64,000 bases of DNA from Firmicutes bacterium HGW-Firmicutes-14 (GCA_002840275.1 PHAB01000019.1:1-64000), one strand, 5' to 3'. Shown: positions 2,223-42,492, numbered from the stretch's first letter. Translations and numbers: made by a program. Notes: generated from the letters alone by a model not told the origin.

Positions 2223-2492
2223 TCAGTCTTCCAGCAAATCCTTTTCCCGCAGAGTGTCCAAAAACTCATCCAGGTCCCCGGCAGCCTGTTCCCTGTCGAC
2301 ATCAAACTCCGAACAGACGGCATCCAGAAGCTGTTCCCTGTTCCGGCTGCCATCAGCCATTTCCCAGATAAAGCTTCCCACTTCATTCAGAGAAAGCACC
2401 TTGCCAAGATCAGGATGCATGATCACCGCTTCCCCGTCGGTAATCCTGGTTATCAATTTAGGGTTTTTCCTGATATTACCTGAATCCATCAT
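2223..2492 (-). CDS. PqqD-like RiPP recognition element protein
   Basis: This protein of about 89 residues has the PqqD family pattern: an N-terminal beta-rich half (ITDGEAVIMHPDLGKVLSLNEVG), then FIWEMADG and a helical half (LLDAVCSEFDVDREQAAGDLDEFLDTL). Proteins of this fold bind the leader of a ribosomally made peptide and present it to modifying enzymes. In lasso-peptide clusters the equivalent is B1. Its start overlaps the end of the peptidase gene by 17 bases, so the two are translationally coupled. Two small peptides with a YxxP leader-like motif lie upstream at 5637-5726 and 7310-7387 and are the obvious candidate partners. No lasso cyclase or B2 protease is nearby. Confidence 0.8.
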   Translation of the reverse strand: MMDSGNIRKNPKLITRITDGEAVIMHPDLGKVLSLNEVGSFIWEMADGSRNREQLLDAVCSEFDVDREQAAGDLDEFLDTLREKDLLED

Positions 2493-2949
2493 CAATGCAG
2501 CTCCTTTTCTTCCGCCTCAGCAAAAACTGGCATATCCTGGCCCAGTACCGGGCTAAAGGTTCGGCCATACAGATTACTTCGGAATAAAGTTTTAAGAATC
2601 CCCTGTTGGGGTTCATATCACCAAGAACCCTGAACCTGAGCTTAACCACCCGGCCCAAAACCTGATTAAGGGGTGTCGGGGGGTCAAAACCCAGGTTAGT
2701 GTCACCTTTTGTTATTACCATGGGATTACCGTTATGACAAACAATTTTCCAGCAGCGGTGGACAGTCAGCCTGCCATCCCGGTTGATCAGGAGGAGGTCA
2801 CCTTTTTCGGGAAATAAAGATCCAAGAGGTGAAATCTCTGCCAAGGTCCCATCAGGAATAACCGGCCACATGGAATACCCGGAAGCGGTAAGATAACCTG
2901 ATGTACCTTCTTTTATCACATTATCACAAAATAACTGATGATAATTCAT
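2476..2949 (-). CDS. S24/S26-family peptidase, SipW-like signal peptidase
   Basis: This 157-residue protein has the signal peptidase I active-site box SGYSMWPVIPDG with Ser26. The usual general-base Lys is replaced by His in LTVHR (His64), as in SipW and ER-type signal peptidases. TKGDTN provides the conserved Gly-Asp region. There is no clear N-terminal membrane helix. A hydrophobic stretch near the C-terminus (residues 115-145) may associate with the membrane. It is the first gene after its own promoter and is followed by pqqD-like and phosphoesterase genes. In this context it may process the small peptides or the secreted repeat proteins upstream. The substrate is inference. Confidence 0.8.
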   Translation of the reverse strand: MNYHQLFCDNVIKEGTSGYLTASGYSMWPVIPDGTLAEISPLGSLFPEKGDLLLINRDGRLTVHRCWKIVCHNGNPMVITKGDTNLGFDPPTPLNQVLGRVVKLRFRVLGDMNPNRGFLKLYSEVICMAEPLARYWARICQFLLRRKKRSCIDDGFR

Positions 2950-3070: not shown

Positions 3071-5581
3071 TTAATCCCTGAATTTAATCCTGCGGGTAAC
3101 CAGAACCCCGGCAGCCACAATCAGTGCGGCTATAACCACATATAGTCCGTAATTTCCGTTTGCAGCCTCCGTACTTTCCTGGTTGGCATTCATCTCATGG
3201 GCAGCCTGGCTGAGAGCAGGCACCACCTGCACTACAGGGGGTTCCCCGACAGGCTTGAGAATGGTCAGGAACATTGATTTGACCACTTCATAACCTGATT
3301 CATCGACAGCGGTAATGACGCCATCTCCTGCCGGAACTGCAGCAGTCCACCAGGAAGACCCGGGGGTCCGTGTTAACAGGGTATCCCCGTGTCCGGGCAC
3401 ACTGTACCTGATGCTGACAGCATTAAACAGCGGTTTAATCTTCAGCATGTAAGTACAGTCAGCCTGGGCCGATGGGTTAATCTTCATCAAAGGCAGGCTG
3501 TTATCAATGGTGATCTTGTAGCTGCATTGCCATGTTTCCCCATTGGCGCCTGCCACATATACCTGGATGTTATAGGGTCCATCGGGGGTACCAAAGGGTA
3601 CCAGGAATGATACCTTCCAGATACCGGGCTCACCTTGTTTAAGATTGAGCTTACGCCCATCGGGGAGAACAGCATATACCTGTTTGGCATCCGGCCCGGT
3701 CTTGACCGTAATGGTCGGGTCACCGGCGGGTACCGCGGTCGGGTATACAATGATAACAGGTTCTTCTTCGGGCGGACCAGATACCGGCGGTATAATAATA
3801 GAGTCTTCCTGATTACCGAAATTCAAGTTGCGAGCGTTTCTATTTCCTGAGTTTATTTCTATAGTATGCGAGCCGGTCGCCGGAGCTGTCTGAGTCCAGT
3901 CATCCTGCTGGACTTCTTCTACGGTGTAACTGCCAAAAGGAAGTCTGTTGAAAATGTAATACCCATTGGCATCGGTTGTTGTAGTCTGGCCGTCATCGAG
4001 GGTGATGGTCCATCCGCTTAACGCGGGTTCATTATCAGCCCAAGCACCGTCTCCGTCTAAATCGTTGAACTTATAACCACTGATGCTGCCATAATCATCA
4101 CCACCACCGCTGGGCTTGTAATTACCGAAGTCCAGATTGTCCTTAATTTTATTTTGTTCATCCAATACTACATCATGGTAATTAGGGTCATTAGGAGCGG
4201 TCTGCTTCCAGCCACTCTTCAGAACTTCCTTAACCCGGTACTCTCCATACTCCAATCCTGCAAATTCGTAATAACCGTTATCGTCAGTCACATCAGTCTG
4301 GCCGTTGCTGAGCTCGATCGTCCAGCCTTTCAGGTAACTTTCGCCCTCGTCATACCGGCCGTTTTTGTTTGCATCATAGTATTTGCGACCACTGATGCTG
4401 GTTTCCGGCGGCTGCTGATAGTTGCCAAAATCAAGGTCATTAGGCGCTCCGAATTCATCAACCACAGTTATGGTCGGGCCAATGAAGTCATCTTCGGTAA
4501 AAGTACGTTTCTCGTTATAAACTTCAGAACTACAGATGAAAGTGTATTCGCCCGGAGTCACACCGTATACCTCAATAATAACAGTAGAATCCCCCCCGCA
4601 AATCAGGGGCTTTGTATAATAGAAACTATTGGGGCCTCCGTAGACCACACCGTCTACAGTGCCGGTCCATTCTATACCGTTGGGGTCTATGGTTACAGTG
4701 TAATAATCCGGATCGTCAGGGCGGGTCTGCTCCCATTCCGGCCGCTGTTCCTCTTCAATAATATATGCACCCGGACGCAAACCGGTAAAAGAGTACACCC
4801 CGTCATCATCGGTATAAACACTTTCCACAACCTGGCCATCATTTAGCAGGCGGATATTCCACCCCTCAATTGGAGGTTCGTTTTCATCCCACTGACCGTT
4901 ACCATTACTATCCCGGAACTTATGGCCGCTGATATCGCCTTCATCTTCCGCAGTAACACGTACTGCCAATATAGCTTCTCAGGGGCCGTAAAGCCCTGTG
5001 ATATTCTGGTATCCGGTATAGGTCTCCTCATCCGGCACCCCATCCCGTTGTATGGTCATTTCCGAGGCCCATCTCAAATCATCATCATAGGAGATGACCG
5101 GAATGTCCATAAAACTATTGGCAGGTACCGAGAGAACAACAGGACTTGCCGTGACCGGCACCGGGGAACCGGCCTCAACAACAGGCACGCTGCAAACGAC
5201 TCCATCACTGTCCTCAAGCCGTTCCCAAACAGAGCCATTGAGTCTTTCCATGAAGATATTTAGTGACGTTATGTAGACAGCGCCTGTAACATCAGGAACC
5301 GTTACGGTTATAATGCCTTTTCCTGTATTAGTGATATTCCCAACCTTAAGGTCTGATGGGTCAATAACATACTGGATTTTTGTGGTGCCACCCACACCGA
5401 TAGTATCGTCGTAACCGGGCATAATACATCCATCCTGTTGTAACTGCCAGATAAACCGTCCTTCCAAATCCAGCTCCTGGGTAACTTCCTGGGCGAAAGC
5501 CGCTGCCGGTATTGATAAAATTATTAGTAAGGCGAGCAATGCGCCGCCGATGATTACACCGTTTTTCCTATGTCTTCTCAC
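3071..5581 (-). CDS. Secreted SdrD/Cna-B repeat protein with in-frame UGA (copy 2, candidate selenoprotein)
   Basis: Read through one TGA at codon 201 (4979-4981), this frame encodes 836 residues. It starts at a GTG with AAAGGAGGTG before it. Residues 1-30 are a signal peptide ending AAAFAQ. Residues 31-200 form a domain shared with copy 1, ending LRWASEMTI...LYGP. The UGA follows, then ILAVRVTAED. Three SdrD-B-like beta repeats come next, each starting ISG.K/Y and ending (D/N)FGN. A proline-rich linker, an Ig-like region and a C-terminal membrane helix with positive tail follow; there is no LPXTG. The reading frame is unbroken on both sides, and the post-UGA sequence is conserved in the divergent paralogue. 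Two separate genes are unlikely because the downstream part would lack both a signal peptide and a good start (only TTG at 4969). Confidence 0.75.
4950..4966 (-). promoter_or_regulatory. SECIS-like hairpin after the UGA codon (copy 2)
   Basis: Starting 12 bases after the UGA, GCAGTA CGTGT TACTGC forms a perfect 6-bp stem with a 5-base loop. The loop begins 18 bases after the UGA and has G at its second position. As I recall the published bacterial SECIS consensus (loop 3-14 nt, G in the first two loop bases, stem 4-16 bp, loop 16-37 nt from UGA), all conditions are met. Confidence 0.55.
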
Positions 5582-5636
5582 TTTTATTTCACCTCCTTTC
5601 GGAAAATTTCAGGTCTCATTTTTGTCTTTTCACATT

Positions 5637-5726
5637 TTACTGTGGTAGATCCCAGCAACTCCAGCCGGTTTCAAAAGTTATTGTCTCCTCGATGACTATT
5701 ATGGGCTTGATGTATTTCCTTTTCAA
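5637..5726 (-). CDS. Small RiPP-precursor-like peptide B (29 aa)
   Basis: This short gene uses a TTG start, 9 bases after GGGAG. The product begins KRKYIKPIIVIEE, continues TITFET and ends GWSCWDLPQ. It aligns with peptide A at RKY.KP.IV.EE...FET, while the C-terminal tails differ (here 9 residues with Trp and Cys). A conserved N-terminal part with YxxPxI and a variable tail is the layout of a leader and core, and YxxP is the leader motif recognised by PqqD-like proteins in lasso clusters. It lies 56 bases upstream of the copy-2 secreted protein, just as peptide A precedes copy 1. Calling it a RiPP precursor is inference. Confidence 0.6.
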   Translation of the reverse strand: MKRKYIKPIIVIEETITFETGWSCWDLPQ

Positions 5727-5742
5727 AACATCTCACTCCCTT

Positions 5743-7281
5743 TTATAAATTGTTAATGTAATCTAACATGTCTTTTACCTCGGTAATCTGCTCACGAGTA
5801 TAGGATGACGGGTCATTAATTATATCAAGAGCCCGGTCTATTACTTCACCTACAGAGATGGACTGTCCGTTATATTCTACTTGGTGACCGGGTAACAGAA
5901 ACGCATTATCCGGGTTAGGCATTTGAGAATCAGAGGATAAATTGATTGTGAGCTGGGCAGCCAGCAGGTGTGCTTTAAGCAGTGTGAGTTCCATGCCTTT
6001 CTTGTTACTATAACTGGCAAACACCGCATCAGCCGCATCTATATCCTGGCCCACAAAGGTACCTTCCAGAAGTTTATTAAACTGCTCCGGTGTATAATGG
6101 TTATCCCAGTTCTTCCAGAACCCGGGGGTAAGGCCGTCGGTTTCCCGGTCGGTATAATTGCCGAAATCCAGGTTATCCGGAGCGCCATTCTCACCAACCA
6201 CAGTTATCGTTGGGCCGGTGCAGCTGTCCTCATCCAAAAACGCTCCATTGGTAGTAGCAATGAGCAGCGCTGTATTTGTAATCTCATATTTGCCTGGTGA
6301 CGCTCCATATACATTGATAACAATCGTAGCACTTCCTCCGCAAATCAGCTGTTTCGTATAGTTTAGGGTGTCAGGGTTAAGTACATTACCGTCAACCGTA
6401 CCTGTCAAAATAATGCCGTCTGAATCCACAGCAACTTCATAATAACCCGGGTTAACAGGGGTTGTCTGAACCCAGCCGGGCTGCTGGACTTCTTCCACGA
6501 TGTAAGTCCCGTCTGGTACATTGGCAAATTCATAATAGCCGTTTTCATCTGTCACATCAGTACGGCCATCGCTGAGCTTGATTGTCCAGCCGGCAAGGGG
6601 AGGTTCACCCTGGTCATATATACCGTTGCCATCAACATCCCAAAACTTGTGTCCACTTATAAAACCTTTGTTCTCCGCAGTAACACTTACTGCAAGGGTA
6701 CCAAATCAGGGGGCGTACCAACGACTGATAATCTGGTAAGCGGAATAAACGTTATCATCCGGGATACCGTTTCGCTCGATCGTCATATATGACGCCCATC
6801 TGAGGTTTTTGCCCACAGTATCATAAGAACTGATGTTGATCGGATAATCAACCGGGAACTGCATTATTGCATTTGTTACCGGTTGGGGGGAGGTCACAAC
6901 AGGGATTATTACATCATTGCCGGCCCTGTCCTGATATGGGACCCAATTATTAAGACCATTCTCAATTTCCAGGTGGATATACAATGAGCTTATACTCACT
7001 GAATCAACTACACCGGAAAAATCAGCAGAAAAGGTACCTAAAACATCTACTTCATGGGGAGCTGTAATTTCAAAAGTAACCTGTGTTGTCTCACCCACAT
7101 TTATAGTATCTGAAGCCACGCTGACAGTCTGTACCAGGGGCTTCCAATCGTTATATCCCTTAAGATCCAATGTTTGGGGGATATCGGAAGCAAAAACCGC
7201 ACCCGGCAGTAAGAACAATAAAACTGCTGTCAGGAAAACAATGTATAAAACAGATTTTTGCCTGCCCAATTGTTTTCTCAT
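5743..7281 (-). CDS. Secreted SdrD/Cna-B repeat protein with in-frame UGA (copy 1, candidate selenoprotein)
   Basis: Read through one TGA at codon 192 (6706-6708), this frame gives 512 residues. The ATG has AAAGAGGTG before it. Residues 1-31 are a signal peptide (AVFAS). Residues 32-191 form the domain shared with copy 2, ending LRWASYMTI...WYAP. After the UGA come GTLAVSVTAEN and ISGHKF, one SdrD-B-like repeat ending LDFGNY, then a distinct C-terminal domain starting TPGFWKNW. That Trp-rich motif is seen in other prokaryotic surface proteins. There is no membrane anchor or LPXTG. The UGA is exactly homologous to that of copy 2, although the N-terminal domains have diverged strongly. A frame error is excluded because the frame is the same on both sides. 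Confidence 0.75.
6677..6693 (-). promoter_or_regulatory. SECIS-like hairpin after the UGA codon (copy 1)
   Basis: GCAGTA AGTGT TACTGC lies 12 bases after the UGA, in the same place as in copy 2. It differs only at the first loop base. The stem codons are identical in the two genes even though most of the surrounding coding sequence has diverged. Confidence 0.55.
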
Positions 7282-7309: not shown

Positions 7310-7387
7310 CTATTCACAACGACTCACAAAGGTTTCAAAAACAACTGATTCTTCAAATACTATGGCCGGTTTGCTATATTTTCTCAT
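7310..7387 (-). CDS. Small RiPP-precursor-like peptide A (25 aa)
   Basis: ATG at 7385-7387 follows AGGAGG at a 9-base spacing. The product begins MRKYSKPAIVFEE, continues SVVFET and ends FVSRCE. The first 19 residues match peptide B in pattern (Y-x-x-P-x-I, EE, FET), while the last six differ but keep one Cys. The gene sits between the HPr-kinase-like gene and the copy-1 secreted protein, whose start is 28 bases downstream. A precursor recognised by the PqqD-like protein and perhaps modified by the kinase is plausible. A short leader controlling the secreted protein is the alternative. Confidence 0.65.
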   Translation of the reverse strand: MRKYSKPAIVFEESVVFETFVSRCE

Positions 7388-7447: not shown

Positions 7448-8281
7448 TTATTCTTTAAGATTACAGAGCTCTTCTTCTATACACCTCCAAAACGAACCGT
7501 CCTTTCTAAAATGTAAATCCATGGGGCGTACCTGCCGCAGAAAATCACAGCACAGGTTAAATATCTTAGCCTCATACGGGTTTCGCTCTATAACCGGGAA
7601 AAATATGCAGGGAAGCATCTTAAATAAGGCCTGGGTTTGAGATAGCGGTTCGAGATAAACTTCGGTATCCTGCTTAATGAAAAATATGCCGTTGATTTCA
7701 CCGGAAGGCTCTAATGGTTCAGAATATATCTCACTGCGAAACGGAGAATGGAATATGTGAAAATTGCCGGAGTTATCTTTTCTGACCAATGTAACTTCAT
7801 CTGAATAGAGCAGGGGATTTTCTGTGAGCTTTACGATGGTTGACTTGCCATAACCCGACGGGCCGGAGAAGAGATAAGTTTTTCCGTTTCTCGTGATACA
7901 TGAGGAGTGGACGGCCAGCCCGCCATGGTCAACAATGATGACTGAAAGAATTGTCCGGAGGACGGCGCCTAAAGCAAAATAACCGCTAACCATAACTCTG
8001 CCTTCTTCTCCTTGGATGGAGTAGAAACCCTGATACAACGGGTGATCAACTTTTATAATACCTTCACTTATTTTGACATCGGGAACCAGGACAACATCTG
8101 CACCGCCGCCGTTTTTCATCCCGGGATTAACAATGACTTCTATGTTTATCCGCGGTATATCCTCTGCCGAATCAGCAGCCGGTTCAGTATCGGAGTACCA
8201 GTCCGGCAGCCGGCCAAAATCACCGTCCGGCATAGTCAGACAAAATTGGATCCCTGCACAGTTTAAATAAAATTGCCCCAA
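7448..8281 (-). CDS. HPr-kinase/phosphorylase-like P-loop kinase (peptide-cluster type)
   Basis: This protein of about 277 residues has a Walker A loop GPSGYGKST in its central part, preceded by VHSSCITRNGK and followed by LYSDEVTLV. These are typical of the HprK-like kinases found in RiPP clusters, where a relative phosphorylates the C-terminal Ser of the lasso peptide paeninodin. It lacks the HprK N-terminal DRTT domain. The TTG at 8281 is chosen because GAGGTG lies five bases before it; ATG at 8305 is the alternative. The gene is first behind its own promoter and is followed by peptide A. Peptide A has a Ser and peptide B a Ser and several Thr as possible targets. Confidence 0.75.
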   Translation of the reverse strand: MGQFYLNCAGIQFCLTMPDGDFGRLPDWYSDTEPAADSAEDIPRINIEVIVNPGMKNGGGADVVLVPDVKISEGIIKVDHPLYQGFYSIQGEEGRVMVSGYFALGAVLRTILSVIIVDHGGLAVHSSCITRNGKTYLFSGPSGYGKSTIVKLTENPLLYSDEVTLVRKDNSGNFHIFHSPFRSEIYSEPLEPSGEINGIFFIKQDTEVYLEPLSQTQALFKMLPCIFFPVIERNPYEAKIFNLCCDFLRQVRPMDLHFRKDGSFWRCIEEELCNLKE

Positions 8282-8420
8282 AGTATCACCTCGATCCCGA
8301 ATCAAAAGTCGCTATTTCACGATATTAGTCGTAATTTGGCTTAATTCCCCGGATATCGTTGTTTTTTTGCGCTAACTCCCAATTATCTTCCATTTCCTCG
8401 TTATTACTACTGATAACGTA

Positions 8421-8486: not shown

Positions 8487-9608
8487 TCAGCCGTTATTGG
8501 CAGTAACCCGGCGCATTTTCCTGAACAGGTCCAGCCAGCGCCTGGGGTAATAAAAGCATACACAGGCCGTAGAATCAATATTATACAGCAGCCTCATCTT
8601 GGCCTCCGGAGGAAACACAGCCTGCCATGCCTCGGTTAACCCGCCGGCAATTCCTTCATAACGGACCAGCCTCCTGGTTATTTCGGTTAATCCGGTCGGA
8701 GGCCTGTCCGGCAAGCATTCAAGATCTAACCTGTTCCGCAGGTAAGATGCGGGCTGCAATTCTTCCAGCACCCATGCGGGAACGGGAGCCTCCAATAACA
8801 AACCGGCATAGAAAAGGGAGGAGTAGACACGGATGGAAGCATGATATTTCTTGGCTGTATGGATGAAATCAGACCAGTTAATCTGCTGTCCTTCCAGCTT
8901 TAAGGCCGCAGCAACATCGAGAACATGCCTCAGAACACAATAATTATGATTAGCTGAATGGATACACAGGTAAAGCAGGAAATCCCGGGGTGAAAGGTCA
9001 TAAGCTTTAGTCTGCCCTACCTGTACCTTTATGGCTCTGTCCCATATTTCATGCATGTTTATCTCTTTGCCCCTGCCGTCTGTTAGGTGAAAATGGAGTT
9101 CGAAGTACAGACAGCCCATGGCGGTATTTTTTTTATACATTAAATGATTGGAGATTAATCCGAGCCTGGTAGGTATACGTCCCCAGTTGCCCATATCTAT
9201 GAAACCAAGGGAATCTAAGACAGAAGCCGCTTTTTCCAGGTTATGCTCTTCTACCAGCAGATCTATATCAACACTCTTTCTGGCTGCCTGGTCCCCATAA
9301 AGCCGTTCAGCCAACCGGGTTCCTTTAAGGACCATACACCTGATACCCGCAGCATCCAGAGCGGCAAGAGCCTTCTCCGTTTCATCGGCAGCCAGCATGG
9401 TATATAAGAAGTTTCTTTTATAAGCCTTATTTAAACTTTCCATTATTTCCGGAGGAATGCAGCCCTCAGGAGCGGAGCGGGCATAATAGGCAACTAATTC
9501 GGTAACCATGTGTGAATTGGCTTCAGCCAGAAGGGTACTCCAGTCTGCAACCCGGTTTTTTTCTATAGAGCCTGTTTTCATAATGTCGAGCAGGCCTGAA
9601 TTATGCAT
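8487..9608 (-). CDS. Nucleotidyltransferase family protein (NTP_transf_5 type)
   Basis: This protein of about 373 residues belongs to the uncharacterised nucleotidyltransferase family often found beside PqqD- and HprK-like genes and in polysaccharide loci. The motifs are VLKGTRLAERLYGD followed by RKSVDIDLLVEE, where the two Asp residues would bind metal and nucleotide. A long helical C-terminal part follows (HSANHNYCVLRHVLDVAAAL). GGGAGG precedes the ATG at 9608 and is too close to the TTG at 9623. It ends just upstream of the promoter at 8421-8449. The substrate is unknown. A role in tailoring the peptides or a glycan carrier is inference. Confidence 0.75.
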   Translation of the reverse strand: MHNSGLLDIMKTGSIEKNRVADWSTLLAEANSHMVTELVAYYARSAPEGCIPPEIMESLNKAYKRNFLYTMLAADETEKALAALDAAGIRCMVLKGTRLAERLYGDQAARKSVDIDLLVEEHNLEKAASVLDSLGFIDMGNWGRIPTRLGLISNHLMYKKNTAMGCLYFELHFHLTDGRGKEINMHEIWDRAIKVQVGQTKAYDLSPRDFLLYLCIHSANHNYCVLRHVLDVAAALKLEGQQINWSDFIHTAKKYHASIRVYSSLFYAGLLLEAPVPAWVLEELQPASYLRNRLDLECLPDRPPTGLTEITRRLVRYEGIAGGLTEAWQAVFPPEAKMRLLYNIDSTACVCFYYPRRWLDLFRKMRRVTANNG

Positions 9609-9645
9609 GATTGATCCTCCCAAGCTATTGTCATCTCTAGTAGAA

Positions 9646-10812
9646 TTAAATTTTTACTTTGGAACGTTCAATAGCACGATTATAAATGTTCATTAACATC
9701 TTGTAGTTCTGCTGAGCTGTATATTTCTCTTCATATTCCCGGCGGGCATTTAAGCCCATCCGCCTCATCTCATCAGGATTATTAAAAGCCCATTCAACTT
9801 TAGCTGCCAAGCCATCCGGGTCACCGGGGGTAAAATGCAGACCGGTTTGACCATGGTTCACAAGAGTTGCCATGCTCCCCAAATTTGAGGCAATAACCGG
9901 GGTGCCTGTGGCAAAAGCTTCAATTATTGTTTTGGGGAGGCCTTCGTAACACTCTGAAGGGAATATGAGCAAACTGGCATCACCCAATAATTCCAAAACC
10001 TCATTCGGTTCTTTCCTGCCCAGATATTCAATTCCTGGATTGATTTTTACCTTTTCCACTAAGGGCCCATCGCCAACTATTTTTAAAGAATACCTGGGAT
10101 TGAGCGTCCTCCATGCAGTAACCAGGGTATCTATACCCTTTTCAACTGACAGTCTTCCAACAAAGAGAGCATAACCGCCTCCATGAGTTCCAGCAACAGG
10201 TACGGGATAGATAAAATTAGGTTTGACCTCGATTCTCTCCGATGGCAGACCGCCTGCAATAAACTTTGTCCGGGCAAATTCAGTCAAGGCTATATAGGTA
10301 TCCACTTTTTGGGTCCACGTCTGCATTAACCCATGAATAAATTGCATTACAGCAACAACAGAACTTGCCATGAAACTGTCACGGTAGCATTGTTGGAATA
10401 CACCCTTCAATCGAAGATTTTTACTGATGCAGTCTTCACAAATACCGCCTTTATTAAAAAGCAATGCATTGAGACAAAGCAATCGATAATTATGTAAGGT
10501 TTGAATAACTGTTTTCCCCTTAGCGTTTACGGCCCAGTATCCTGAAGGAGAAATTAAGGGAAAAGTGTTATGAAAATGAACTATGTCAGGGTTTATATTA
10601 TCAATTAAATCGGTAAATTTCCTATATGTATCTTTGTTCCAAATGCTGTATAAAGAAGTTCTGATCTTACCTAACCGGTTTATATCATCATTGTTAACCC
10701 GGTAAGTGAAAACTTCATGGCCATACTTTTGCAGAAGATTAAATTCCTCTTTAAAAACCTGGTCTTCGCCTCCGGCTTGCTGGTAATAATTATGAACTAA
10801 TAGGATTTTCAA
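9646..10812 (-). CDS. GT4 family glycosyltransferase
   Basis: About 388 residues with a GT-B fold of the glycogen-synthase-like GT4 family. The N-terminal domain starts KILLVHNYYQQAGGED, and the nucleotide-sugar domain has FVGRLSVEKGIDTL, the EX7E region PSECYEGLPKTIIEA and GTPVIASNLG. The TTG at 10810-10812 is preferred because the ATG at 10869 lies far inside the upstream ligase gene and adds an unrelated extension; GGGGG precedes the TTG. It overlaps the ligase gene by 23 bases. It should add a sugar to the growing exopolysaccharide repeat on undecaprenyl-PP at the cytoplasmic membrane face. Confidence 0.85.
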   Translation of the reverse strand: MKILLVHNYYQQAGGEDQVFKEEFNLLQKYGHEVFTYRVNNDDINRLGKIRTSLYSIWNKDTYRKFTDLIDNINPDIVHFHNTFPLISPSGYWAVNAKGKTVIQTLHNYRLLCLNALLFNKGGICEDCISKNLRLKGVFQQCYRDSFMASSVVAVMQFIHGLMQTWTQKVDTYIALTEFARTKFIAGGLPSERIEVKPNFIYPVPVAGTHGGGYALFVGRLSVEKGIDTLVTAWRTLNPRYSLKIVGDGPLVEKVKINPGIEYLGRKEPNEVLELLGDASLLIFPSECYEGLPKTIIEAFATGTPVIASNLGSMATLVNHGQTGLHFTPGDPDGLAAKVEWAFNNPDEMRRMGLNARREYEEKYTAQQNYKMLMNIYNRAIERSKVKI

Positions 10813-12169
10813 TAGTGTTACCCCCGGCCAATGGCGAAGAAGTAGTTTGCAGATTTTCATTGGGTCCAATTATTCCGTTCTTTAAATGGCTGTAAAAGCG
10901 AAGAACTACACCCCAAAAGAAATAATAAGGTAGGGCGAAAAACGGTTTCTCAAAGGCATCCTCCCCTATTGCATTGACCCATATCAGAACAAAGAATATC
11001 AACAAAACCAACAACCGGTTTGCACCTTCCTGCCAGTTAATTTTGATACACATTTTATGCGCACTTCGCCACACTTTTATTAAGAGATAATGCATCCATA
11101 CAAATGAAATGAATCCAATTAAACCTAAGCGCCCAATTATGGAAATATAAGAATTATGCGGTTCACGGACCGGAACTCCTCCGGTAACTAAGAAGTCAGT
11201 AAGTGGCTCCCCAAAACCCAACCCTATTATTGCTGTTTTAACACTGTATAATAATTTATCAAAAATATTAGCCCACCACGTTAATCGCTGCCCTACCCCG
11301 GATGCTGCCCCTTCTACTCCTTCACTCTCTATTCCACCTATTGCCATAAAGTGGCTGATGATAAAATCCATTGATACATCCTGACCTAAACGTCCTGTTA
11401 TCTGTAAATCAAGAAAAGGTACTGTAATAAGAAAAACCGCAAGCACAAAAAGAATTAATATACCGCTTTTAAAGACTCTTCTTTTGAATAAGGCAAACAA
11501 TAAAAGAAGAGCGATAACCTGAAGATAAACTGTACGAGCCTGAAACAGAAAAATCGTAAAGCCCATCATGAACGTGATAAAAACCCATAGAACATTGCTT
11601 TGAAACCCACGATAATTGCTGAAAAGCATAAAATACGAAATTGCAAATAATACCATTGCTGAAGTACCAGTATAAGTGAAGAAAATGGGTACCTGATTAC
11701 CTGCGCCAGCAATCACTACCGGGGAATACCTCCACAGAGTATCAGAAAAAGGATATCCCAGGGCATAAATACATATGAAAACTGATAACATACCTAACCA
11801 CCGGAAAAATTTTCCTATAGCATTCGGTTGTGCGGCAAAAACAAATCCCACAATCAAAAACAATGATTCTATTACATGAGTAGCATCCCTTAATGCCCAC
11901 ATACCATAATCGGGTACTCCCGCAAAAGCTGTACCTATTCCAAATACCCACCAAATAATAAACGGCCACAAACAAACGGTCCTTGCCAATTTTGGAAATA
12001 ACTTGAGATAATTAATAGTTAACAGGGAAAGGATAAGAACCAGTTCTCCAATAGGAATACCGCTTCCTACCGAAGGGGGAATTCTGACCTGCATAAATCC
12101 GTAATTAAATACAATATATAAACTGAGCAAACCTAATAACACAGTATTACGTATGCTAATTGCGCCCAC
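10790..12169 (-). CDS. O-antigen ligase/Wzy polymerase-like membrane protein
   Basis: This 459-residue, very hydrophobic protein has about 11-12 membrane helices. A large outer loop before residue 330 and the conserved region VREPHNSYISIIGRLGLIGF carry the HxxY/N pattern of O-antigen ligases and Wzy polymerases. In an exopolysaccharide locus with a Wzx/MurJ-like flippase, the likeliest job is polymerisation of the lipid-linked repeat units outside the membrane. It sits between two GT4 genes and overlaps both. Ligase and polymerase cannot be told apart from sequence alone. Confidence 0.8.
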   Translation of the reverse strand: MGAISIRNTVLLGLLSLYIVFNYGFMQVRIPPSVGSGIPIGELVLILSLLTINYLKLFPKLARTVCLWPFIIWWVFGIGTAFAGVPDYGMWALRDATHVIESLFLIVGFVFAAQPNAIGKFFRWLGMLSVFICIYALGYPFSDTLWRYSPVVIAGAGNQVPIFFTYTGTSAMVLFAISYFMLFSNYRGFQSNVLWVFITFMMGFTIFLFQARTVYLQVIALLLLFALFKRRVFKSGILILFVLAVFLITVPFLDLQITGRLGQDVSMDFIISHFMAIGGIESEGVEGAASGVGQRLTWWANIFDKLLYSVKTAIIGLGFGEPLTDFLVTGGVPVREPHNSYISIIGRLGLIGFISFVWMHYLLIKVWRSAHKMCIKINWQEGANRLLVLLIFFVLIWVNAIGEDAFEKPFFALPYYFFWGVVLRFYSHLKNGIIGPNENLQTTSSPLAGGNTIENPISS

Positions 12170-13415
12170 TCCCTTGTGTATTAGCCATTACAGCATTATC
12201 TTGACAAATATCATCATATACCTTTTTTAAAAATAATCCCTTTTTTCTCCATTCAAATAGTTCATTGATTCTGGCACGTCCCTCTTTGCCCATATTTACT
12301 CGCAAGTCCATATCATTTGCTAACTTCAGCATAGATTTCGCAATATCCCGAATCGCTTGATCTGGATTCAAAGCAGGAATTTTATAACCGGTTTTATTTG
12401 TTACCTGGGTCGCGGGTCCACCTAAATCCATGCATATTACCGGCTTACCTGCAGCCATTGCCTCTAAACATACCCAACCACCAGAATCATGTAAACTTGG
12501 ATGCACTAGAACATCACACTCTGCCAACTTTTGTAATGCTTCCATTCTTGGGAGCGCCCCCCAAAATTTTACCCTATTTAGCAAATTGTACTTAATAACA
12601 ATATTTTCTAAACGTTTTCGCTCAGGCCCATCTCCAAGAATCCAATATTCTGAATGGGGGCAATTCGCTTCAGCAAATGCGCGAAGTCCTAAATCATAAC
12701 CTTTTAAATGCACGAGGTTCCCCATACTTATAAAACGAATAGGCTGATATTCGCGAGGCTTTATTTGACCCAATTTTTCTAAATCTTCATCAGATAAACC
12801 CGCTTCTGACCAGACCATGATTTTTTTGACTCCAATCTTTTTAAGCCGGTTTTTTGTTTCATTAGTAGTGGCAAGAACTAACGAACTTTGCTGGGCGGTT
12901 AAGCGCACTAATGGGTCATGTTCTGCTAACCATCGGGCTAAATCTCTTAAAAACTCATATATCTTGCCTCTTAAACTAAAATTTCCATAAAAACTCTGTG
13001 GAGCTGATTCGCCACCACCCACCGGCCCCCAAATAAAAGGGATGGGAAGTCTAACAAAAAGACTTGGGGTCCAATATTTGACGAAAGTTACATGATGCAC
13101 TAAGTCAAACTGTATTTGTCGGTGTAACTGTTTTGCTAACAAATAGGCTCCTATTTGCCACATATAGTAATATAATTGAATACCCCTGCGTTTTTTCTTC
13201 CAAAAACGTGCCCAAGTTGGCAGGTCGAAGTATATCCATTTAACATTGGAAAGTGGCTCGTTCTTTAAAACCTCCTCAATATTTTCGCGGTTGTTTGTTC
13301 TTGTAATAACCCAAACTTCATGATACGTTGATATTTGTCTTACGTTGTTCCAACCCACTCCAGGTTCAGATCCTCTATTAGGCTCACATGCATACGCTGA
13401 TATCAATACTTTCAT
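12156..13415 (-). CDS. GT4 family glycosyltransferase
   Basis: This 419-residue glycosyltransferase begins MKVLISAYACEPNRGSEPG, a signature of a GT4 subfamily common in exopolysaccharide loci. The C-terminal domain has ISMGNLVHLKGYDLGL, ILGDGPERKRLENI, and HPSLHDSGGWVCLEAMAAGKPV as the EX7E-like donor-binding motif. It overlaps the downstream ligase gene by 14 bases. The DNA here is more AT-rich than the housekeeping genes, as often seen in exchanged glycan loci. The sugar transferred cannot be predicted. Confidence 0.85.
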   Translation of the reverse strand: MKVLISAYACEPNRGSEPGVGWNNVRQISTYHEVWVITRTNNRENIEEVLKNEPLSNVKWIYFDLPTWARFWKKKRRGIQLYYYMWQIGAYLLAKQLHRQIQFDLVHHVTFVKYWTPSLFVRLPIPFIWGPVGGGESAPQSFYGNFSLRGKIYEFLRDLARWLAEHDPLVRLTAQQSSLVLATTNETKNRLKKIGVKKIMVWSEAGLSDEDLEKLGQIKPREYQPIRFISMGNLVHLKGYDLGLRAFAEANCPHSEYWILGDGPERKRLENIVIKYNLLNRVKFWGALPRMEALQKLAECDVLVHPSLHDSGGWVCLEAMAAGKPVICMDLGGPATQVTNKTGYKIPALNPDQAIRDIAKSMLKLANDMDLRVNMGKEGRARINELFEWRKKGLFLKKVYDDICQDNAVMANTQGSGRN

Positions 13416-40162: not shown

Positions 40163-40504
40163 TCAGTCCACCTCCAGGCTGTCTACATATAATTCCCGCC
40201 CTGATTTTATTTCCATGGAAAGGGAGGAACAGGCAGGGCACACAAACATGTGTTTCTCTATTCTTCCTTCCCGCCCGCATTCCGTACAACGGGCTAAAAG
40301 CGGTATCTCTTTTATGACCAGTTCCGCCCCTTCAACATTCGTAGAGTTGGCATACACCTCAAATGCCGCTTCCAGGGCCTCCGGTACTGCATTAGTCATT
40401 TCTCCAACCACCAGGGTAACTTTGGTCACCCTTTTCTCCGGGAAATCCGCAGTATACCTGCTGATTATCTCAAATACCCCGGCCATTAATGCCATTTCAT
40501 GCAA
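40163..40504 (-). CDS. hypA: Hydrogenase nickel chaperone HypA
   Basis: This 113-residue protein begins MHEMALM, with the nickel-binding His2. It carries a zinc ribbon with CTECG and CPAC pairs about 16 residues apart. It hands nickel to the large subunit together with HypB. Its start overlaps the cytochrome gene by 19 bases and its stop abuts hypB. Confidence 0.95.
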   Translation of the reverse strand: MHEMALMAGVFEIISRYTADFPEKRVTKVTLVVGEMTNAVPEALEAAFEVYANSTNVEGAELVIKEIPLLARCTECGREGRIEKHMFVCPACSSLSMEIKSGRELYVDSLEVD

Positions 40505-41142
40505 TGTTCCGCAACCTCCTCGACATCTTCCGATACGGGCTGCATGCTCTCCCCCTCAGGAAAATACCCGGTAATCATGGATTTAATGACACTCCATCCT
40601 CCTAAGAAGGATAGGTATATATGCAAGGCCACGGTTACTATGAAGACCCAGGTAAGTATAAAGTGAAACTGTCTTAAAACTACCGGCCCTCCCAGCGCCC
40701 GGACAAAACCGGCCAGGGCATCGGGGAAATAAAGGGAAAATCCCGTGACTGCCTGTAAAAAGACCAGGACTGCCCACGCATTGTACAGCAGTTTCTGGCC
40801 TGCGTTATATTTCCCGGATTCCGGGGTCGTTTTACTCACAAAAAGGTAGTACCTGATCAGGGCCGGAAAACCTTTGAAGTCCCGGAATCTGAATAACAGC
40901 TCCCGGTAATCTTTGCTGACCCAGGAATAGTATATCCTGATCACGATACCGTATATGATAAGGTACATGGCAATAAAATGAATTTTTCTTGCTATGTCCA
41001 TGTTGGCAAAAAGCGGGAAATGATAAGGATCTCTTATATACAGTCCGGTTGTTGTAAGGAGCCCGATGTTGGCGGCATTGATCCAGTGGAGTATCCGGGC
41101 AGGCAGGGTATGATAATATAGTTCTCTGGCCAATACGGTCAC
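40486..41142 (-). CDS. Ni/Fe-hydrogenase b-type cytochrome subunit
   Basis: This 218-residue membrane protein has four helices and the HyaC/HydC-type pattern: ILHWINAANIGLLTTTGLYI with the first heme His, HFIAMYLIIYG in helix 2, and LRQFHFILTWVFIVTVALHIY with two further His. It would pass electrons from the small subunit to the quinone pool. It starts at a GTG three bases after the large subunit stop. Its heme ligands look intact, so electron transfer to or from the membrane is retained. Confidence 0.9.
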   Translation of the reverse strand: MTVLARELYYHTLPARILHWINAANIGLLTTTGLYIRDPYHFPLFANMDIARKIHFIAMYLIIYGIVIRIYYSWVSKDYRELLFRFRDFKGFPALIRYYLFVSKTTPESGKYNAGQKLLYNAWAVLVFLQAVTGFSLYFPDALAGFVRALGGPVVLRQFHFILTWVFIVTVALHIYLSFLGGWSVIKSMITGYFPEGESMQPVSEDVEEVAEHCMKWH

Positions 41143-41145
41143 CTC

Positions 41146-42492
41146 TCAGAAAGACCTGGCAACCCTGTATATCTCTACAGGGCTCTCGGGTATAGCAATG
41201 GCAACCCCTGTCAGGGCATGTTCCACAGGCCCGTTTTTTCGGTTCGCGGTAAGGGGGCACAAATTCCAGGAAAATGCGTCAAAGACATTATACCGGTGAA
41301 TCTTATTGTTCTTTACAGAAACATAATGCACCACCGGTCCATGGGAGGCTTCGGCAGTCCCTACCGCCTCACCTTCCTCAGGCACGTAACTTTTCAGCGC
41401 GTATTCCTCATCCGGCAGCAACTGTGCAAGCCAGCCGTTTATCCTGGCTATAAGTATTTGACACTCCTCAAAACGAGCCCTGCTTCGCCCCAGGACCGAA
41501 ACAGCCGTTTCCCCCAGCCCCATAATGGCCGGGTTTCCGGATACAGTCATCCTTGCCAGGGCCCCGACTTCACACGTAGTTCCGGCAAAAACCGCACCCT
41601 TAACCCACGAATACCCTCCCGGCTTGTCTGGAACCGGCTCAAGTTCGGCGGCCAGGGAACCTTCCGGCCCCAGGGATTTGTACTTTGACCCTGTACAATC
41701 CATGGATATCATTTCTTTATCGACTTCCACGGTTTTGTTTCCGATAAGGGCCCTGGCAGGTATCAGGGAACCCGCAGGTCCTCCGGTTGTAAATTCCCCG
41801 GTGGAAAGGAAATTGCCTGCCCCGGCGCCTATATTGAAATAATCCCTGTAATTATTCTCCAGAGTCCCCAGGTCATCGGCATATTCACCGGTGATAAACC
41901 GGGATATGTCCTTTAGGATAGCCTGTATTTTCAAAATATCCGGTGAATTAACCAGGTATGTTATTCCACCATAGACGACATTACAGATATGGGGTACCTT
42001 ACCCCCTATTACCGCCATGGTCCTGTGTATCAGCTCCCGGGCGGCAAAGGATGCCCAAATGTTTTTCTGTATTTTAGCCGCCGGTTCCCCGTTTATTCTT
42101 AAATCCGGGAGACCATACGAAGAACCGCCAGGCGGAAAAGGAACATAATCCGGCACAACGGTCTGATAAAAATGAGTAATATGCCCATATATTATGTCCA
42201 GGCCCAGGAGTATATTCCGGCAAAGAACAGAATTTTGGGGCGGCTTTACCCCGGCCATCTCTTCCAGGGCCCTGACAGAGGCCGTTGTATGGGCAACAAA
42301 ATCGAGACCGTTAGTCCTCTGGGTAATCTGAACAGCATCCAGGGGGTCTTTTCCCCTGAGAGTCTTCTCGAAATCCCAATAATAAGTGGTGCCTGCCCGC
42401 GCACTTGTGATACGTCCTGATTCTGCTTCCACTTCAAGGCGGAGCGGGCGCAAACCCCTGTTCAGTGGGTGAATTGTTATCCTCTCAGCCAC
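41146..42492 (-). CDS. [NiFe]-hydrogenase large subunit homologue lacking all nickel ligands
   Basis: This 448-residue protein aligns with group 1 large subunits along its length (WDFEKTLRGKDPLDAVQIT, AHTTASVRALEE, FSWNLCP). But the nickel-binding RICGVC motif reads RTNGLD (residues 59-64). The L0 motif RIEGH reads RGLRP. The catalytic-Arg motif APRGAL reads ASHGPV (residues 382-387). The protein stops at VARSF, exactly where DPCxxCxxH would begin. No frame downstream restores it. The remainder is well conserved and in frame with its operon. It is therefore most likely a nickel-free paralogue with a new function, rather than a decaying gene. No C-terminal peptide remains for a maturation protease to remove. 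Confidence 0.85.
   Translation of the reverse strand: MAERITIHPLNRGLRPLRLEVEAESGRITSARAGTTYYWDFEKTLRGKDPLDAVQITQRTNGLDFVAHTTASVRALEEMAGVKPPQNSVLCRNILLGLDIIYGHITHFYQTVVPDYVPFPPGGSSYGLPDLRINGEPAAKIQKNIWASFAARELIHRTMAVIGGKVPHICNVVYGGITYLVNSPDILKIQAILKDISRFITGEYADDLGTLENNYRDYFNIGAGAGNFLSTGEFTTGGPAGSLIPARALIGNKTVEVDKEMISMDCTGSKYKSLGPEGSLAAELEPVPDKPGGYSWVKGAVFAGTTCEVGALARMTVSGNPAIMGLGETAVSVLGRSRARFEECQILIARINGWLAQLLPDEEYALKSYVPEEGEAVGTAEASHGPVVHYVSVKNNKIHRYNVFDAFSWNLCPLTANRKNGPVEHALTGVAIAIPESPVEIYRVARSF

Follow-up and report, generated by a model that had tools for sequence, protein, structure and literature searches.

Two neighbouring genes and their homologues share one in-frame UGA

Whether the single UGA codon inside each of two neighbouring genes is read as selenocysteine (Sec) or ends translation is the question raised by this locus. 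The genes lie on the minus strand of a 64,000-nucleotide stretch of DNA, hereafter the window, from Firmicutes bacterium HGW-Firmicutes-14, a Thermincola-related anaerobe (Table 1). Judging from the sequence, the internal UGA of both genes is very probably read as Sec.

Table 1. Features of the selenoprotein locus, in window coordinates
Feature	Position	Strand	Remarks
PqqD-like peptide chaperone	2223..2495	-	PF05402
Signal-peptidase-I-like protein	2476..2949	-	Below cut-off
Predicted selenoprotein gene 1	3071..5581	-	836 aa with Sec201; signal peptide, new N-domain, Sec, SdrD-B repeats, LICGG domain, C-terminal hydrophobic segment and basic tail
LICGG domain, gene 1	4421..4696	-	Holds the only invariant Cys, C328
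SECIS hairpin, gene 1	4950..4966	-	GCAGUA-CGUGU-UACUGC, 12 nt after UGA
In-frame UGA, gene 1	4979..4981	-	Codon 201, putatively read as Sec201
Short peptide gene upstream of gene 1	5637..5726	-	LKRKYIKPIIVIEETITFETGWSCWDLPQ; TTG start; sequence read directly
Predicted selenoprotein gene 2	5743..7281	-	512 aa with Sec192; signal peptide, N-domain, Sec, SdrD-B repeat, LICGG domain, further C-terminal region
LICGG domain, gene 2	6157..6438	-	Holds the only invariant Cys, C314
SECIS hairpin, gene 2	6677..6693	-	GCAGUA-AGUGU-UACUGC, 12 nt after UGA
In-frame UGA, gene 2	6706..6708	-	Codon 192, putatively read as Sec192
Short peptide gene upstream of gene 2	7310..7387	-	MRKYSKPAIVFEESVVFETFVSRCE
HprK-like kinase, ScmC-related	7448..8305	-	Below the model's cut-off; co-occurs with the selenoprotein
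NTP_transf_5 nucleotidyltransferase	8487..9623	-	

Each gene has exactly one internal TGA, located at the same alignment column in both, and the reading frame continues past it without a frameshift for 635 (gene 1) or 320 (gene 2) open codons before a TAA is reached. The surrounding sequences are ...GLYGP*EAILAVRVTAE... in gene 1 and ...SRWYAP*FGTLAVSVTAE... in gene 2. A preliminary description of the locus had placed the two TGAs at these positions, in frame, and had pointed to the conservation of LAV(R/S)VTAE behind them; both observations were correct. It had also described UGA as an ordinary stop elsewhere in the window and, genes 1 and 2 apart, 12 of the 55 larger ORFs picked there indeed end in TGA, none of them with the SECIS motif described below.

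One other TGA in the window that precedes a long open frame was considered and rejected. The gene that it ends (window 41146-42492, minus strand) encodes a [NiFe]-hydrogenase large-subunit-like protein, seemingly without the Cys ligand motifs, which finishes with ...PVEIYRVARSF; active [NiFe]-hydrogenase large subunits continue DPCxxCxxH at that end. A cytochrome-b-like gene (40486-41142, minus strand) follows in the same frame two codons past this TGA and the motif is absent, and the TGA looks like an ordinary stop.

Two more members of the family were found in related genomes, one in a MAG labelled Thermincola ferriacetica BL5_bin.1 (G004) and one in a genome placed in the same genus (G007), each with exactly one internal TGA. 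The UGA stands in one alignment column in all four homologues, which come from three genomes and two genera and make up the whole family evidence. When 398 genomes from across the phylum were searched with a profile, no further member came up; the one partial match (G340, E 8.6e-4) covers the N-terminal part of the profile only and belongs to an unrelated protein. The GTDB contig set, viral contigs, plasmids and phages likewise yielded none, and a homologue with Cys or another sense codon at the UGA column was found in none of these sets. A Cys homologue at the Sec position is a usual supporting criterion for a bacterial selenoprotein, not a defining one. Of what the preliminary description had looked for in homologues, the UGA is thus present throughout, and the usual Cys/Sec pair is missing.

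The genome encodes the selenocysteine machinery

Recoding as Sec had been tied to the presence of selA, selB, selC and selD, and all four were found in the genome: selA (E 3e-192) with selD adjoining it, selB, and selC, the gene for a tRNA-Sec with anticodon UCA (75 bits).

The selD gene (own genome C15; L002 7180-8190, minus strand) has an in-frame UGA of its own in the N-terminal part (...SCKAG*AAK...). It is probably itself a selenoprotein gene missed by ordinary ORF calling.

A hairpin with fdhA geometry follows each UGA

The four genes share one layout, in which a 6-bp Watson-Crick stem that starts 12 nt after the UGA encloses a 5-nt NGUNU loop, and the 17-nt hairpin GCAGTA-NGTGT-TACTGC claimed earlier for genes 1 and 2 does begin exactly 12 nt past each UGA. 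The hairpins of the Thermincola genes read GAAGUA-AGU(A/U)U-UACUUC. At stem pair 2 the window genes have C-G and the Thermincola genes A-U, with a difference on both sides, and the encoded residues differ as well, by replacements between Ala and Glu and between Ala and Ser in one direction or the other. Because the stem changed on both sides by way of amino-acid changes, the pairing is not explained by conserved protein sequence; the change between C-G and A-U may have been a single evolutionary event. When the protein was kept fixed in a control with randomly drawn synonymous codons, six Watson-Crick pairs and the loop G arose with P 0.012-0.031 per gene.

The known selenoprotein gene fdhA served as an independent yardstick for this geometry. 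Among 18 in-frame UGA sites of the fdhA family, from ten genomes of the same bacterial family, 12 have the identical geometry of 12 nt and 6 bp, with the loop GG(U/G)CU, and the other six take a second form outside this geometry. The SECIS elements of the new family and of fdhA were compared in a fixed register, since a joint MAFFT alignment gapped them wrongly. A scan for UGA-N12-6bp-NG[G/U]NN-6bp over 10,758 distinct UGA triplets, in 315 kb of the own and related genomes, gave 21 matches. Those in an open frame, defined as 20 codons open on both sides of the UGA, numbered 15, and all 15 were the four genes of the new family and 11 fdhA sites, which is more than chance. The motif was drawn up with these genes already in view, and the fdhA sites are the independent check.

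Published criteria for a bSECIS are a loop of 3-9 nt, a stem of 4-16 bp, G within the first two loop positions, a spacing of 16-37 nt and an MFE at or below -7.5 kcal/mol (PMC13188914). All these hairpins, including the two singled out in the preliminary description, lie within every one of these limits, with MFE values of -8.4 to -9.4 kcal/mol. Folding energy alone is unexceptional compared with shuffles (z -0.8 to -2.6), so that it is position, geometry, covariation and the match to fdhA that carry the case.

The preliminary description had named programmed readthrough, with short and long products, as the alternative. Without Sec, a near-cognate tRNA, for example tRNA-Trp, would read the UGA at low frequency with the aid of the hairpin. 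An in-frame UGA, a downstream structure and a conserved extension fit this in general, and tRNA-Trp(CCA) is present. However, the hairpin shares its spacing, stem and loop with the fdhA SECIS of the same genomes, which a generic stimulator does not need, and the genome has a full Sec system. Plain readthrough is very unlikely because one SECIS class is common to the new family and fdhA.

The coding sequence past the UGA is under purifying selection

The two Thermincola genes gave a dN/dS of 0.385 ahead of the UGA and 0.286 past it. For the pair in the window the upstream value was 0.27, and downstream dS was saturated. The coding sequence downstream of the UGA is under purifying selection. These values bear on whether the UGA is a true stop, with the genes decaying or with the N-domain as a finished short protein and the repeats as a separate downstream gene. 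In-frame starts do occur after the UGA, a TTG four codons on in gene 1 and an ATG 16 codons on in G004, but they are unshared: no start codon lies in frame in the first 50 codons past the UGA of gene 2, or in the 79 codons checked in G007. Given purifying selection past the UGA and no shared restart, restart and decay are poor explanations, and a pseudogene or a split gene is rejected on the same grounds. Furthermore, the UGA is common to four genes, and a true stop, which we consider extremely unlikely, would leave the fdhA-SECIS-type hairpin unexplained. A conserved true stop with a separate downstream start was also sought in the homologues and was absent, the UGA being conserved instead.

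Reading of the UGA as an ordinary amino acid, through reassignment or through a UCA-anticodon suppressor tRNA of the Cys or Trp type, such as are known elsewhere, is to all intents ruled out, since among the 46 of 47 genome tRNA matches read with ARAGORN UCA was found on tRNA-Sec only, with CCA on tRNA-Trp and GCA on tRNA-Cys. Such decoding would also need no SECIS, yet the SECIS is conserved, and other genes end at UGA in the ordinary way.

Recoding of the UGA as Sec in a secreted surface protein, as first proposed, is supported by the machinery, the bSECIS, the UGA-containing homologues and the fdhA-type hairpin.

Domain architecture and the invariant Cys

Both proteins begin with a signal-peptide-like segment, and the hydrophobic segment and basic tail at the C-terminus of the gene 1 product look like a membrane anchor. 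The N-domain of ~160 residues has no Pfam match. AlphaFold models it as a beta-sandwich (pLDDT 80), similar at borderline significance to generic folds of that kind, for example ApaG-like proteins. The SdrD-B repeats (PF17210) were recognised with E 8e-34 in gene 1 and 2e-12 in gene 2. After them, in both proteins, stands a domain with the motif TKxLICGG, which was found in no protein beyond these four. They have a single invariant Cys, and it lies in this LICGG domain, 122-137 residues after Sec. There is no CxxU or UxxC motif in these proteins.

The full-length structure model (pLDDT 56) is too weak for placing Sec relative to the invariant Cys, and neither the full-length nor the domain-only model puts the two near each other. 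A position of the UGA just before the last N-domain strand appears in the full-length model and is absent from the domain-only model, and we make no claim for it.

A RiPP-like neighbourhood

Directly upstream of all four selenoprotein genes is a short peptide gene whose product starts with Y-x-K-P and has one Cys near the end. Sec was also considered in the small peptide of G007 (...MFCP*C...) and rejected, as the stop is TAA. The HprK-like kinase is present in all three genomes with the selenoprotein and in none of the seven others searched, one marginal match aside. PqqD-like, HprK-like, radical SAM and ABC genes lie beside the Thermincola members, and the neighbourhood of the selenoprotein genes is RiPP-like.

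Within the Thermincola genus, L018 (8500-16200) and L019 (3500-9600) were seen to hold RiPP-like clusters. These encode PqqD-like proteins and HprK-like kinases, two of each, together with a radical SAM protein and an ABC transporter; there are also several short YxKP peptides, some of which have Gly-rich tails. In the window, genes for glycosyltransferases and an O-antigen-ligase-like (Wzy_C) protein (9646-13415, minus strand) adjoin the cluster, which suggests a surface polysaccharide locus.

Discussion

If the UGA is read as Sec, SelD would activate the selenium with which SelA makes Sec on tRNA-Sec, and SelB would bind the hairpin 12 nt downstream and bring Sec to the UGA, as at fdhA. The full-length proteins would then be exported, with Sec sitting between the new beta-sandwich domain and the SdrD-B repeats. 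Outside the cell, Sec may act together with the single invariant Cys, as a selenenylsulfide or as another redox or metal site, and the exported pair could serve the neighbouring RiPP-like cluster; a possible task is the handling of the Cys-containing peptide whose gene lies immediately upstream.

This functional part is put forward because one invariant Cys lies in a domain confined to the family, the peptide gene is upstream in all four cases and the kinase co-occurs. Our confidence in any specific function of Sec is low, and we infer its chemistry; a redox or selenenylsulfide role with the LICGG Cys is a tentative suggestion. It is conceivable, and on balance unlikely, that Sec bonds extracellularly with the Cys of the upstream YxKP peptide, through a selenenylsulfide or similar link, and that the peptide is matured on, carried by or displayed from the repeat-protein stalk.

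The mode of Sec insertion is known, whereas the protein family is new. As in fdhA, where Sec is inserted through a bSECIS and SelB, there is a UGA, a 12-nt spacer, a 6-bp stem and a 5-nt loop with G at position 2, served by the same machinery in the same genomes. Unlike fdhA, the host is an exported beta-repeat surface protein and not a molybdenum or tungsten enzyme, the stem and spacer sequences differ, and the new family is without a Cys homologue in the sets searched. An exported B-repeat protein is not among the 119 prokaryotic selenoprotein families listed in a 2026 review (PMC13188914), in line with the earlier expectation that a secreted selenoprotein of this type would be new. No NCBIfam selenoprotein model (June 2026) matches these proteins, and a literature search that combined selenocysteine with terms for SdrD-type proteins or adhesins turned up no relevant paper. 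SdrD-type MSCRAMM adhesins and other SdrD_B proteins (PF17210) share the SdrD-B repeats, the export signal and the surface-type architecture, but the Pfam-less N-domain, Sec and the LICGG domain set the new family apart; the NCBIfam SdrD/SdrC model scores 58.7 bits against a cut-off of 2500, with only the repeats in common.

The neighbourhood also has known counterparts. Some lasso peptides are tailored by HprK-like kinases and nucleotidyltransferases (PMC8498205). Lasso-peptide clusters of the paeninodin and pseudomycoidin type (PMC8498205) resemble this one in the PqqD-like chaperone, the HprK-like kinase, NTP_transf_5 and short YxxP-type peptides; however, a B2 protease and a C cyclase were not recognised here among the annotated genes, the model scores are below cut-off, and the selenoprotein and the signal-peptidase-like protein are extra. 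The SynChlorMet (Scm) cassettes are similar in that the HprK-like kinase matches ScmC (E 1.6e-14) and the PqqD-like protein matches ScmD (E 9e-10), although both matches are below the curated cut-offs. To our knowledge, the definition of the Scm cassette includes no selenoprotein. Sec is also listed under a bacteriocin family, the selenobacteriocin TIGR04081, with the motif SGUG (PMC13188914). Like the present case, that family places Sec in a setting of ribosomal peptide products; here, by contrast, Sec is in the large repeat protein and Cys in the small peptides.

The known prokaryotic selenoproteins are mostly redox enzymes or thioredoxin-fold proteins. Sec in an exported adhesin-like beta-repeat protein, with neither CxxU nor a Cys homologue, lies outside the current catalogue, and detection methods based on Cys/Sec pairs would miss this family. 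This suggests that selenoproteins are hidden in truncated 'hypothetical protein' annotations of surface proteins. The family offers a concrete test case for the role of extracellular Sec, and its tight link to a RiPP-like cluster makes the function testable. If the link between Sec and the peptide were true, this would be a peptide system built around extracellular selenocysteine.
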